Part shown: positions 26,550 through 29,992 of the stretch, one piece after another | How positions within the stretch are numbered: the stretch's first letter is position 1 | How the letters are laid out: each line of letters opens with the position of its first letter | Source of the DNA: Gammaproteobacteria bacterium | GTDB lineage: Bacteria > Pseudomonadota > Gammaproteobacteria > DSM-19610 | Assembly: GCA_026197075.1 (NCBI GenBank) | Contig: JAPHQV010000015.1 | Coordinates: forward strand, 124,001-188,000 | Length of the DNA stretch: 64,000 nt | Direction of reading: 5' to 3' | Notes under the pieces: model-generated | What the model saw: only the letters and a program-made list of their open reading frames with translations | Told to the model about the DNA's origin: nothing | The model's database searches: none | Made by a program: the position numbers and the translations under genes

Positions 26550-26715
26550 GGATATACCAAATAAAATAATCTACTAAACATTAAGATATTAAATTTATTT
26601 AATGTTATTTATAAATAAAAAACCGCTCGACCCGACCGGTGCTCCATATAGGCTTTGACAGGGAATTCCCCCTTCAGGCATGCTGGTTAAGCTAGGGTTA
26701 CCGGAGGGTCCCGTC
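26550..26715. other. AT-rich divergent promoter region
   Basis: 26550-26635 is far richer in A/T than anything nearby. It contains the inverted pair AACATTAA / TTTAATGTT around 26577-26607, and is a likely promoter for the minus-strand DUF455 gene. On the plus strand TTGACA (26655-26660) is directly followed by the palindrome GGGAATTCCC (26661-26670); a matching -10 is not convincing. Confidence 0.45.
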
Positions 26716-27057
26716 ATGGCCCAGACGAAGCATATCCTCGAGATCTATGAGCCCTACGATTACACGGGGCCCAACCCCATGGTGGTGGCCGGTGTCTCCA
26801 CCGCCCTCGACCCCACCGGTGTCGAATATTTCCTGCTGGAACTCCCGCAGCCGGTCGCTCTGGCCGATGCCAACCTGGAACAGATCCTGGTGAAACCCCG
26901 CTACAACGGCGACAAGATCGACCGCGCCACCTGCAGCAGCTGCACCGTGATCATCTCCCGGGTAATGCCTGGCCATCACGTCAATGGCAGCGGCCATTTC
27001 GAGTTCGAGCAGGTCCACCACTGGGGTGTGGGGAAGATCACCGTCGCCCCCGGCTGA
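26716..27057 (+). CDS. unknown 113-aa protein with a CSSC motif
   Basis: ATG 26716 follows GGAGGG at good spacing, and the frame shows normal coding use for this genome. The product begins MAQTKHILEIYEPYDYTG and has no signal or membrane segment. It contains RATCSSCTVIISRV and a glycine/histidine-rich end (GHHVNGSGHFEFEQVHHWG). The two adjacent cysteines and several histidines could bind a metal, but no family is recognised. It stands alone, between the DUF455 gene (divergent) and metZ (convergent, 9 bases away). Confidence 0.75.
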   Translation: MAQTKHILEIYEPYDYTGPNPMVVAGVSTALDPTGVEYFLLELPQPVALADANLEQILVKPRYNGDKIDRATCSSCTVIISRVMPGHHVNGSGHFEFEQVHHWGVGKITVAPG

Positions 27058-27066
27058 CGGAACGCC

Positions 27067-28254
27067 TCAGGCGCCCAGTCCACGCGCCAGGTCGTTTTGC
27101 AGATCCCGGACCGACTCCAGCCCCACCGCCACGCGCAACAAGCCCTGACTGATGCCCGCCTCGGCGCGCTGCTCGTCGGTCAGCCGGCCATGGGTAGTGG
27201 TAGCCGGATGGGTAATGGTGGTCTTGGTGTCTCCCAGGTTGGCGGTAATGGACATGATCCGGGTGGCATCCACCACTCGCCAGGCCGCTTCCCGTCCGCC
27301 CTTGACCTCGAAGGACAGCAGGCCGCCGAAGCCGCTCTGCTGGCGCCCCGCCAGTTCGTGCTGGGGATGGGAGGCCAACCCCGGATAATGGACCCGCTCC
27401 ACACCGGGCTGCCCTTCCAGCCAGGCCGCCAATTGTCCCGCCTGTTCGCAGTGGGCGCGCATGCGCAGGCCCAGGGTCTCCAGCCCCTTGAGGAACACCC
27501 AGGCATTGAAGGGACTCATGGTGGGACCGCAGGTGCGCAGGAAACCGAACACCTCCTTGCCCACCCGCTCCCGGTCGCCCACCACCGCGCCACCCACGCA
27601 GCGCCCCTGGCCGTCCAGGTACTTGGTGGCGGAATGGATGACGATGTCCGCGCCCAGGGCCAGCGGCTGCTGCAGCGCCGGCGTACAGAAACAGTTATCC
27701 ACCACCAGCAGGCAGCCCTTGCGCCGAGCCAGCTCCGCCAGGGCGCGGATATCCACCAGTTCGGTGAGTGGGTTGGAAGGCGTCTCCACGAACAACAGGC
27801 GGGTTTCGGGGCGGATGGCCCGCTCCCAGGCCTCCAGGTCCGCCAGCGGCACGAAGCTGGTCTCCACCCCGAAACGACCCAGGTAGTTGCTGAACAGAAT
27901 GGTGGTGGTGCCGAAGATGCTGCGTGAGGAGACGATGTGATCGCCGCTCTTCAGCAGGCCCGCGCAGGTGGCGTAGATGGCCGCCATGCCGGAGGCCGTG
28001 GCCACGCAGGCCTCGCCGCCCTCCAGGGCCGCCAGCCGGTCCTGGAAGGTGCGCACCGTCGGGTTGGTGAAGCGGGAATAGATGTTGCCGGGCTCGGTCC
28101 CGGCGAAGCGTGCCGCCGCCTGGGCGGCGTTGGCAAAGACATAGCTGGAGGTGGGAAAGATCGCTTCCGCGTGTTCGCCCTCCGCGCTACGCTGCTGTCC
28201 GGCCCGCACCGCCCGGGTGTCCAGATCGTACTCGGACCAGTCCTCGATATCCAT
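27067..28254 (-). CDS. metZ: O-succinylhomoserine sulfhydrylase
   Basis: MetZ makes homocysteine directly from O-succinylhomoserine and sulfide, using PLP. The 395-aa protein of the Cys/Met-metabolism family has SRFTNPTV, ATASGMAAI, VVDNCFCTP and the PLP lysine K211 in IHSATKYLDGQGR. ATG 28254 follows GAGGG. metA, which supplies the substrate, lies at 51.4-52.4 kb. The leader carries a SAM-II riboswitch and a terminator, so expression should fall when SAM is plentiful. It is downstream of purF, as in Pseudomonas, but with its own promoter. Confidence 0.95.
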   Translation of the reverse strand: MDIEDWSEYDLDTRAVRAGQQRSAEGEHAEAIFPTSSYVFANAAQAAARFAGTEPGNIYSRFTNPTVRTFQDRLAALEGGEACVATASGMAAIYATCAGLLKSGDHIVSSRSIFGTTTILFSNYLGRFGVETSFVPLADLEAWERAIRPETRLLFVETPSNPLTELVDIRALAELARRKGCLLVVDNCFCTPALQQPLALGADIVIHSATKYLDGQGRCVGGAVVGDRERVGKEVFGFLRTCGPTMSPFNAWVFLKGLETLGLRMRAHCEQAGQLAAWLEGQPGVERVHYPGLASHPQHELAGRQQSGFGGLLSFEVKGGREAAWRVVDATRIMSITANLGDTKTTITHPATTTHGRLTDEQRAEAGISQGLLRVAVGLESVRDLQNDLARGLGA

Positions 28255-28282
28255 GTTGCATACCCTCATCGATCGCGGGCAC

Positions 28283-28315
28283 AAAAAAACCCGCTGTTCG
28301 CCAAGCGAAAGCAGG
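28283..28315 (-). terminator. leader terminator between the riboswitch and metZ
   Basis: On the minus strand the stem CCTGCT/AGCGGG, with inner pairs TTCGC/GCGAA, is followed by seven U (28289-28283). The strand UCGCUU in this hairpin (28308-28303) is complementary to AAGCGA (28326-28321) at the 3' edge of the riboswitch, which would make an antiterminator. Confidence 0.75.
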
Positions 28316-28320
28316 TGCCA

Positions 28321-28374
28321 TCGCTTTAGCTGAATTTATTACGCGCCCGCAAGCTGAACTCAAATCGGCGCAGA
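28321..28374 (-). ncRNA. SAM-II (SAM-alpha) riboswitch
   Basis: The minus strand shows the SAM-II pattern. P1 is GCGCC (28371-28367) with GGCGC (28347-28343). GATTTG opens the loop, followed by the AGCTTGCG segment. After P1 comes the highly conserved tail TAATAAATTCAGCTAAAG, close to the known GUGAUAAA...AGCUAAA core. It sits in the metZ leader about 70 bases before the start codon, which is the expected target for a SAM sensor. Confidence 0.85.
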
Positions 28375-28380
28375 GATCAC

Positions 28381-28410
28381 AGCCTAGTACAGGCCCGCGG
28401 CGGGTGTCAA
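28381..28410 (-). promoter_or_regulatory. promoter of the metZ leader
   Basis: TTGACA (28410-28405) is separated by 18 bases from TAGGCT (28386-28381) on the minus strand. Initiation would fall a few bases before the riboswitch P1 stem. Confidence 0.65.
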
Positions 28411-28480: not shown

Positions 28481-29992
28481 TCACGCGTTGTTATGCAGTT
28501 CGATGATCTCCGCTTCCTCTTCGCGGCGCTTTTCCTTGGCGGAGTCGTTGCGACTGTCGCGCAGTTGGTTGAGATACTGCTCGCTCACGTCGCCGGTGAC
28601 ATATTCCCCGTCGAACACCGAACTGTCGAAGCGCTCCAACCGGGCGTTGCGCTTGCGCACCGTGTATTCCAGGTCGGCGAGATCCTGGAACACCAGCCAG
28701 TCGGCGCCAATGGCCGCACACACCTCTTCCTCGGTACGATCATGGGCGATGAGCTCTTCCTTGGTGGGCATGTCGATGCCGTACACATTGGGATAGCGCA
28801 CCGGGGGCGAGGCGGAGGCGAAGTAGACCTTGCGGGCGCCGGAATCGCGCGCCATCTGGATGATCTGCTCGGAGGTGGTGCCACGCACGATGGAGTCATC
28901 CACCAGCAACACCGTCTTGTCGCGAAACTCCAGGTCGATGGCGTTGAGCTTCTGGCGCACCGATTTCTTGCGCTGCTGCTGGCCGGGCATGATGAAGGTG
29001 CGACCGATATAGCGGTTCTTGATGAAACCCTCGCGATACTTCACACCCAGACGGTTGGCGAGCTGCAGGGCGGCGGTGCGACTGGTGTCGGGTATGGGGA
29101 TGACCACGTCAATGTCATGATCGGGTCGGATGCGCAGGATCTTTTCCGCCAGTTTCTCGCCCATGCGCAATCGCGCCTTGTAGACCGAGACATCGTCGAT
29201 GATGGAATCAGGCCGGGCCAGGTAGACATATTCGAATATACAGGTGGCGTACTGGGGGTTCTCCGCGCACTGGCGGGTCTCCGCTTTGCCATCCAGCGTC
29301 ACCACCAGTGCCTCGCCGGGCTCCAGGTCACGTACCCGCTCGAAACCCAGCGCGTCCAGGGCCACGCTCTCGGAGGCAACCATGTATTCCGTGCCCTGGG
29401 CCGTCTCCCGCTTGCCATATACCAGCGGGCGTATGCCGTAGGGATCCCGGAAGGCAATGATGCCATAGCCCATGATCATGGCCACTGCGGCATAGGCACC
29501 CTTGCAACGGCGGTGCACACCGGCCACGGCCTCGAACACATCGTTATGATCGATGCGCAGCTTGCCCTGGCGCGCAAGTTCATGGGCGAACACGTTGAGC
29601 AGGATTTCCGAGTCGGAATTGGTATTGATATGGCGCAGGTCTTCCAGGAACAGGTCCTGCTGGAGTTCCGCGGCATTGGTGAGGTTGCCGTTGTGGGCCA
29701 GGCTCACGCCATAGGGTGAGTTGACGTAGAAAGGTTGCGCCTCGGCGGAACTTTCACACCCGGCCGTGGGATAGCGCACATGGCCAATGCCCATGTTGCC
29801 GCGCAGGCGCAACATGTGTGACTGGCGGAACACGTCGCGTACCAGGCCATTGTCCTTGCGCAGGTAGAGGCGACTGCCTTCGCAGGTCATGATGCCGGCG
29901 GCATCCTGCCCACGATGCTGAAGCACCGTGAGACCATCGTACAGGGATTGATTGACGGGGCCCTTGGCTACCAGGCCGATTATGCCGCACAT
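28481..29992 (-). CDS. purF: amidophosphoribosyltransferase
   Basis: PurF transfers the glutamine amide to PRPP, the first committed step of purine synthesis. The 503-aa product begins MCGIIGL; after removal of Met, Cys2 is the N-terminal nucleophile of the glutaminase domain. Further marks are [18 protein letters not shown], and the PRTase site [15 protein letters not shown] read as [15 protein letters not shown]. cvpA lies 30 bases upstream and metZ downstream, the usual order. Confidence 0.97.

Follow-up and report, generated by a model that had tools for sequence, protein, structure and literature searches.

Layout of the purF-metZ interval

In the window, that is, the whole stretch of 64,000 nucleotides that was analysed, metZ is found on the minus strand (27067..28254) and encodes an O-succinylhomoserine sulfhydrylase of 395 aa, with matches to NF006003 (709 bits) and TIGR01325 (589 bits) that are both above cut-off and with 9iqh as the closest solved chain. 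Its start codon lies at 28254, preceded by the Shine-Dalgarno sequence GAGGG (28263..28267, minus strand). The gene upstream of the metZ leader, purF (28481..29992, minus strand; TIGR01134, 539 bits), is read from the same strand. Additionally, a 125-aa open reading frame without NCBIfam match (26680-27057, plus strand) adjoins metZ and is convergent with it.

The leader features, all on the minus strand, occupy positions 28283-28410, from the -35 box of a promoter to the final U of a U-tract. The promoter consists of the -35 box TTGACA (28405..28410) and, after an 18-nt spacer, a probable -10 box, TAGGCT (28381..28386), a weak hexamer taken by itself that ends 9 nt before helix P1 and fits the peak position of the -10 boxes of relatives. 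Transcription would be expected to start at about 28376-28372. Between purF and metZ follows an aptamer (about 28372-28323) that is assigned to the SAM-II class below. According to the family alignment and the covariation analysis, the 5′ strand of P1, UGCGCC (28367..28372), pairs with the 3′ strand GGCGCG (28342..28347), and these are separated by the GAUUUGA loop (28360..28366), a ligand-side strand, and by the 5′ strand of the P2 pseudoknot, GCUUGC (28349..28354). The aptamer ends in the tail GCUAAAGCGA (28321..28330), whose GCUAAAG is invariant. Downstream lies a terminator, CCUGCUUUCGC-UUG-GCGAACAGCGGG plus 7 U (28316-28283), in which the hairpin ACCUGCUUUCGC-UUG-GCGAACAGCGGGU (28289..28316; -14.8 kcal/mol) is followed by the U-tract (28283..28289).

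A promoter directly before P1, as seen here, was stated to be usual for SAM-II by Corbino et al. in 2005 (PMC1273637). In our set of 186 sites, the best -35/-10 pair reaches a score of at least 8 out of 12 in 91% of cases, against 26% of shuffled sequences, and the end of the -10 box lies in most cases 6 to 13 nt upstream of P1. As this promoter is conserved, the leader has a start of its own rather than being just the end of the purF transcript.

Membership of the SAM-II class

The preliminary description recognised the aptamer as SAM-II and proposed a covariance search with the Rfam model SAM_alpha (RF00521) as a check. This search does give a SAM-II score at 28381-28305 of the minus strand (30.9 bits, E 4.9e-5 for 701 bases searched), but the score is below the gathering score of 36 bits, which is a working cut-off rather than a property of the class. 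Consequently, a default Rfam scan of the metZ leader yields zero matches and a permissive one is needed. When the whole genome is searched with RF00521, the aptamer is the best match, 15 bits above the next, and a strict core pattern has a single occurrence in the window, compared with zero in 100 shuffled sequences. The model for SAM-II with a long loop (RF01726) reaches 14.8 bits at the metZ leader (E 6.9; cut-off 44), and the single-sequence folding z-score of the element, -0.65, is uninformative. RF00521 also matches chloride-channel-like genes in two genomes with E values of 4e-4 to 5e-3, for which reason the E value alone was distrusted; the matches inside these two genes, together with some others, lack the core motif and were discarded. 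In the window's own genome, SAM-II is found at metZ only.

The low score is shared by relatives, as 14 of the 18 loci examined in the class are below the gathering score of RF00521 or missed by it, and these loci have the same core and the same P1 covariation. In SAM-II, P2a tends to be longer (5 bp in 60% of cases, PMC6061858), whereas only two pairs stand beside the core in the window. Given this short P2a, the Rfam model, with its different consensus, probably underscores the subtype.

Structural evidence was obtained from 100 distinct aligned related sites, in an alignment that was fitted to P1 and therefore helps P1 somewhat. P1 is closed by 5-6 pairs (28372-28367 with 28347-28342 in the window), 95.7% of its cells are paired, and changes on both sides are observed at four of its six pairs, with variants such as GCGCC/GGCGC, CCGCC/GGCGG, TCGCC/GGCGA and ATGCC/GGCAT, among others. 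For the whole structure, the covariation score amounts to 0.117, compared with 0.035 in shuffled alignments and 0.001-0.060 in slid controls. The P2 pseudoknot joins the loop to the 3′ tail (GCUUGC with GC..AAGC) and is paired in 92.7% of cells, but no changes on both sides are found among the 100 sites. As its core is nearly invariant, P2 is consistent with the alignment rather than independently proven. The strands AUUU, UUGC and GCUAAA, which we take to correspond to the SAM-binding strands of the solved SAM-II and SAM-V structures (in part after PMC6061858), are invariant in 39 aligned sites, as is GAUUUGA in the same family alignment. The genomic context is also that of the class, since the element precedes metZ here and metZ, metK, metX or metH in relatives. 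Taken together, the best RF00521 score in the genome, the P1 covariation and the invariant ligand-side strands bear out the assignment to SAM-II, and the metZ leader aptamer is predicted to bind, and thus to sense, SAM.

The element is widespread. Among 56 relatives searched with RF00521, almost every member of the same family has true sites, in many cases two or three of them, although nearly all of these sites are below the cut-off, which is exceeded in 2 of the 56 genomes. Where the loci were read, the sites of this family are mainly located before metZ and metK. With a model (R1) derived from 39 confirmed sites, the element is found in 180 of the 369 genomes that were sampled from the class and in 131 of their 271 genera; the class is taken in the GTDB sense and hence counts the betaproteobacteria. 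Additionally, a scan of named genomes for the core pattern returned at least 118 records, mostly from alpha-, beta- and gammaproteobacteria. That the leader merely resembles a riboswitch by chance, as its score under the gathering cut-off might suggest, has a negligible probability in view of the P1 covariation and of how widely the element recurs, throughout almost the whole family and in 131 of the 271 sampled genera.

Several minor observations were made during this survey. In the window's family, a second SAM-II aptamer with a terminator is frequent before metK (14 loci). At two metZ-like genes, SAM-II is followed by a hairpin without U-tract, that is, by a lost or a different expression platform. 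In Bradyrhizobium, Bosea, Microvirga and others, the core precedes substrate-binding-protein-like or phosphoesterase-like genes, and not core methionine genes, at six loci, with no obvious terminator. At three further loci, an SAH riboswitch (RF01057) lies approximately 1.3 kb from SAM-II on the same strand; these may be the metK and ahcY leaders of a single cluster. The core pattern is also present in three contigs of a viral collection.

Terminator and the proposed switch

As the preliminary description stated, a good terminator stands 3′ of the aptamer (28316-28283, -14.8 kcal/mol and 7 U). Taken alone, this terminator is not significant, as a single such hairpin in 700 bases compares with 0.7 expected by chance. 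In the wider set, however, a strong hairpin with a U-tract is present within 120 nt of 141 of 202 unique SAM-II sites, while the terminator density in the same contigs predicts about 0.024 per 120-nt stretch. Terminators also follow the SAM-II aptamers found before metK, metX and metH.

The complementarity that had been noticed between AAGCGA in the tail (28326-28321) and UCGCUU in the hairpin (28308-28303) is exact. To judge such pairing, the tails (GCUAAAGnnn) of 114 SAM-II leaders were compared with the 5′ halves of their terminators, using 371 terminators from the same contigs as controls. The mean pairing energy is -8.6 kcal/mol, versus -5.3 for the controls (p 8e-21), and exact matches of at least six bases between tail and 5′ arm occur in 45 of the 114 leaders but in 1 of the 371 control terminators. 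Other aptamer segments have no such excess of pairing with the terminator arm, except for a slight one of the P1 3′ strand. Kinship was reduced by clustering, and several thresholds are reported because the coarsest left just 12 independent terminators; the excess persists with 36 clusters (p 1e-6) and with 12 (p 0.01). It is present in metZ leaders, including the betaproteobacterial ones, and in metK leaders, while metX leaders have no excess of tail complementarity. In the window itself the tail match is -8.5, which places it no higher than among the top 9% of the controls.

When 34 metZ leaders are aligned, their terminator arms share a conserved CUUU, after which come one variable base and then a G that never changes. 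Opposite this variable base lies U3 of the tail, and 17 of the 18 leaders that do not belong to the window's group have A or G there; as both can pair with U, the tail pairing is preserved. The register conserved outside this group is GCUAAAGC with GCUUURGC. Within the group the variable base is C, and the arm matches GCGA of the tail, which is the register proposed in the preliminary description.

In the window, the putative partner of the tail is UCGCUUGGC (28300..28308), which belongs to the upper portion of the terminator hairpin, and the resulting antiterminator hairpin (28330-28300) has a predicted energy of -13.7 kcal/mol. Stepwise folding of growing window transcripts, started from 28374, gives the antiterminator as the minimum-energy state from the first point at which it can form until 28292; only once its last bases have been transcribed, just before the U-tract, does the terminator overtake it by a small margin. 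When the P2 strands are blocked, the terminator alone forms. Once the terminator is complete, it is the preferred structure of most leaders even if the tail is free, and in the window it is then slightly more stable than the antiterminator. This counts against an equilibrium switch, and the choice would have to be kinetic, that is, determined by the order of folding.

These results suggest the following model. Transcription would begin just upstream of P1. At low SAM, the free tail GCUAAAGCGA would pair with UCGCUUGGC once the latter has been made, which would lock the 5′ arm of the terminator in the antiterminator hairpin and allow read-through into metZ. At high SAM, the P2 pseudoknot would be stabilised and the tail would be unavailable; the terminator would then act at the U-tract and metZ would not be transcribed. 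An OFF switch of this kind fits a methionine gene. The tail would thus have a dual role, supported by sequence comparison and modelling, as the P2 3′ strand with SAM and as the antiterminator strand when free. Of the hallmarks of a terminating riboswitch, the intrinsic terminator after the aptamer is seen directly in the leader, and an alternative, mutually exclusive hairpin that uses the ligand-bound strand is indicated by comparative complementarity and folding. We consider it highly probable that the SAM-II riboswitch turns metZ off by transcription termination, with SAM binding, SAM-dependent termination, the kinetic choice during transcription and the size of the effect as predictions.

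Other antiterminators could serve the same aptamer. A tentative alternative, of rather low but real probability, is that the pairing in use is either the register GCUAAAGC/GCUUUCGC or one between the P1 3′ strand, UUGCGGG, and the foot of the terminator arm. The first is conserved outside the window's group, as described above, but in the window it contains a U-C mismatch and yields -5.7 kcal/mol, compared with -10.1 for the nine pairs of the register originally proposed. For the second, the metX leaders, which are without the tail excess, tend to pair more strongly with the P1 3′ strand (-11.3 versus -9.4 in the control), and the GC-rich regions 3 and 4 were proposed, speculatively, to act in this way in a betaproteobacterial element (PMC4239095). 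In metZ leaders, however, this pairing is at control level (-9.5 versus -9.4), and the GC-rich P1 3′ strand is not supported as their antiterminator. The switch model put forward in the preliminary description agrees with the comparative and folding evidence and its register is the one predicted for the window, while a different register is conserved outside the window's group.

The hairpin might also be a plain terminator of purF, which lies upstream on the same strand, or a constitutive attenuator, with the aptamer acting mainly on RNA stability or as a small RNA made by termination. Both RNA stability effects and such a small RNA, RZ, have been reported for the Sinorhizobium meliloti metZ (PMC9373788). 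This explanation is unlikely, as a conserved promoter stands between purF and the aptamer, the same combination of aptamer and terminator recurs before metK, metX and metH, and the tail complementarity is specific.

A translational switch, in which P2 of the SAM-bound form would mask the ribosome site, is how the crystallised metX SAM-II RNA works, which Huang and Lilley regard as a rare translational case, most SAM-II riboswitches being transcriptional (PMC6061858). At metZ it is very improbable, since the Shine-Dalgarno sequence (28263-28267) is outside P2, about 55 nt beyond the tail and past a strong terminator. The preliminary description had assumed that SAM-II usually hides the ribosome site. 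This premise is wrong, as terminator-type SAM-II is described in PMC6061858, PMC9373788 and PMC2258182, the last of which gives terminators as its commonest arrangement in alpha- and betaproteobacteria.

Relation to described elements

Terminators after SAM-II have been on record since 2005. Barrick and Breaker reported in 2007 that SAM-II is present in gammaproteobacteria and that, in alpha- and betaproteobacteria, it alone among riboswitches is linked to terminators most often (PMC2258182), and in a paper of 2009 it was described as commonest in alpha-, beta- and gammaproteobacteria (PMC2704228). The closest known case is the metZ SAM-II of S. meliloti, which was predicted in 2022 to terminate on SAM binding, yielding the small RNA RZ (PMC9373788). 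It shares with the window the aptamer class, the gene, a terminator directly after the aptamer and a SAM-bound form predicted to be the terminating one, but its host is an alphaproteobacterium. A terminator-linked SAM-II before metZ is, consequently, an already described kind of control and is not new.

Two elements filed under other names seem to be related to it. Leyn et al. (2014, PMC4239095) presented as new a “metXZ” element located before metX or, in Methylophilales, Nitrosospira and Thiobacillus, before metZ, without assigning it to SAM-II; their Rfam SAM_alpha scan found none there. Like the leader in the window, it combines a pseudoknot before metX or metZ with a terminator, but its metX terminators are without tail complementarity. 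We find SAM-II at metZ in Nitrosospira, Nitrosovibrio and Novimethylophilus (Methylophilales-type), and at metX in other betaproteobacteria, and the metXZ element is probably the same RNA as this SAM-II subtype. The second element is Bp2_287 (RF02424), a candidate small RNA of Burkholderia found at purF-metZ and metX (PMC3521395), which covers the same sequence at these two positions. RF02424 matches the window at 28285-28407 on the plus strand (26.8 bits) and, of 18 further SAM-II loci, it matches 9, in every case on the strand opposite to the riboswitch, and its stated structure is therefore not that of the riboswitch. RF02424 appears to be a wrong-strand family, the reverse complement of the SAM-II riboswitch.

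These observations can be joined in a broader proposal, which we regard as probable, with appreciable room for doubt: a SAM-II subtype with a short P2a, mostly under the Rfam cut-off, would be a main sensor of SAM for the methionine genes in roughly half of the Gammaproteobacteria genomes sampled (GTDB, betaproteobacteria included), its P2 3′ strand would double as antiterminator, and the metXZ element and Bp2_287 would be the same RNA. If this is true, the single pieces are known, while their unification and the conserved antiterminator are new. It would also correct the annotation of a common beta- and gammaproteobacterial SAM sensor, whose scores do not reach the Rfam cut-off and which is on record both as a new element and as a small RNA on the wrong strand. 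Furthermore, the way in which SAM-II controls termination was called unestablished in 2007, and the support added in 2022 consisted of a prediction and RNA levels; the metZ leader offers a cheap and concrete test of such control.

Tandem arrangements, SAM-II/SAM-V and SAM-II/SAM-II, have already been described (PMC9481103). As in the window, the leading SAM-II aptamer runs into an intrinsic terminator, but they contain two aptamers, while the window has a single one. We found tandem SAM-II at 12 loci, from Halomonas, Dechloromonas and others, in which aptamer 1 has a terminator and aptamer 2 lies near the start codon without a U-tract. The second aptamer is mostly a GATTTAA...AACTTGC variant, and some of the tandems precede small unknown genes. 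A phage origin of the second aptamer was considered and rejected, as it has no match in viral contigs. A single genome (G264) carries five further tandem loci with ten aptamers and near-identical small open reading frames downstream; at two of these loci (L203 and L205) an HD-type hydrolase-like gene follows, a resolvase-like reading frame is near another (L207), and the whole set looks like the spread of a cassette.
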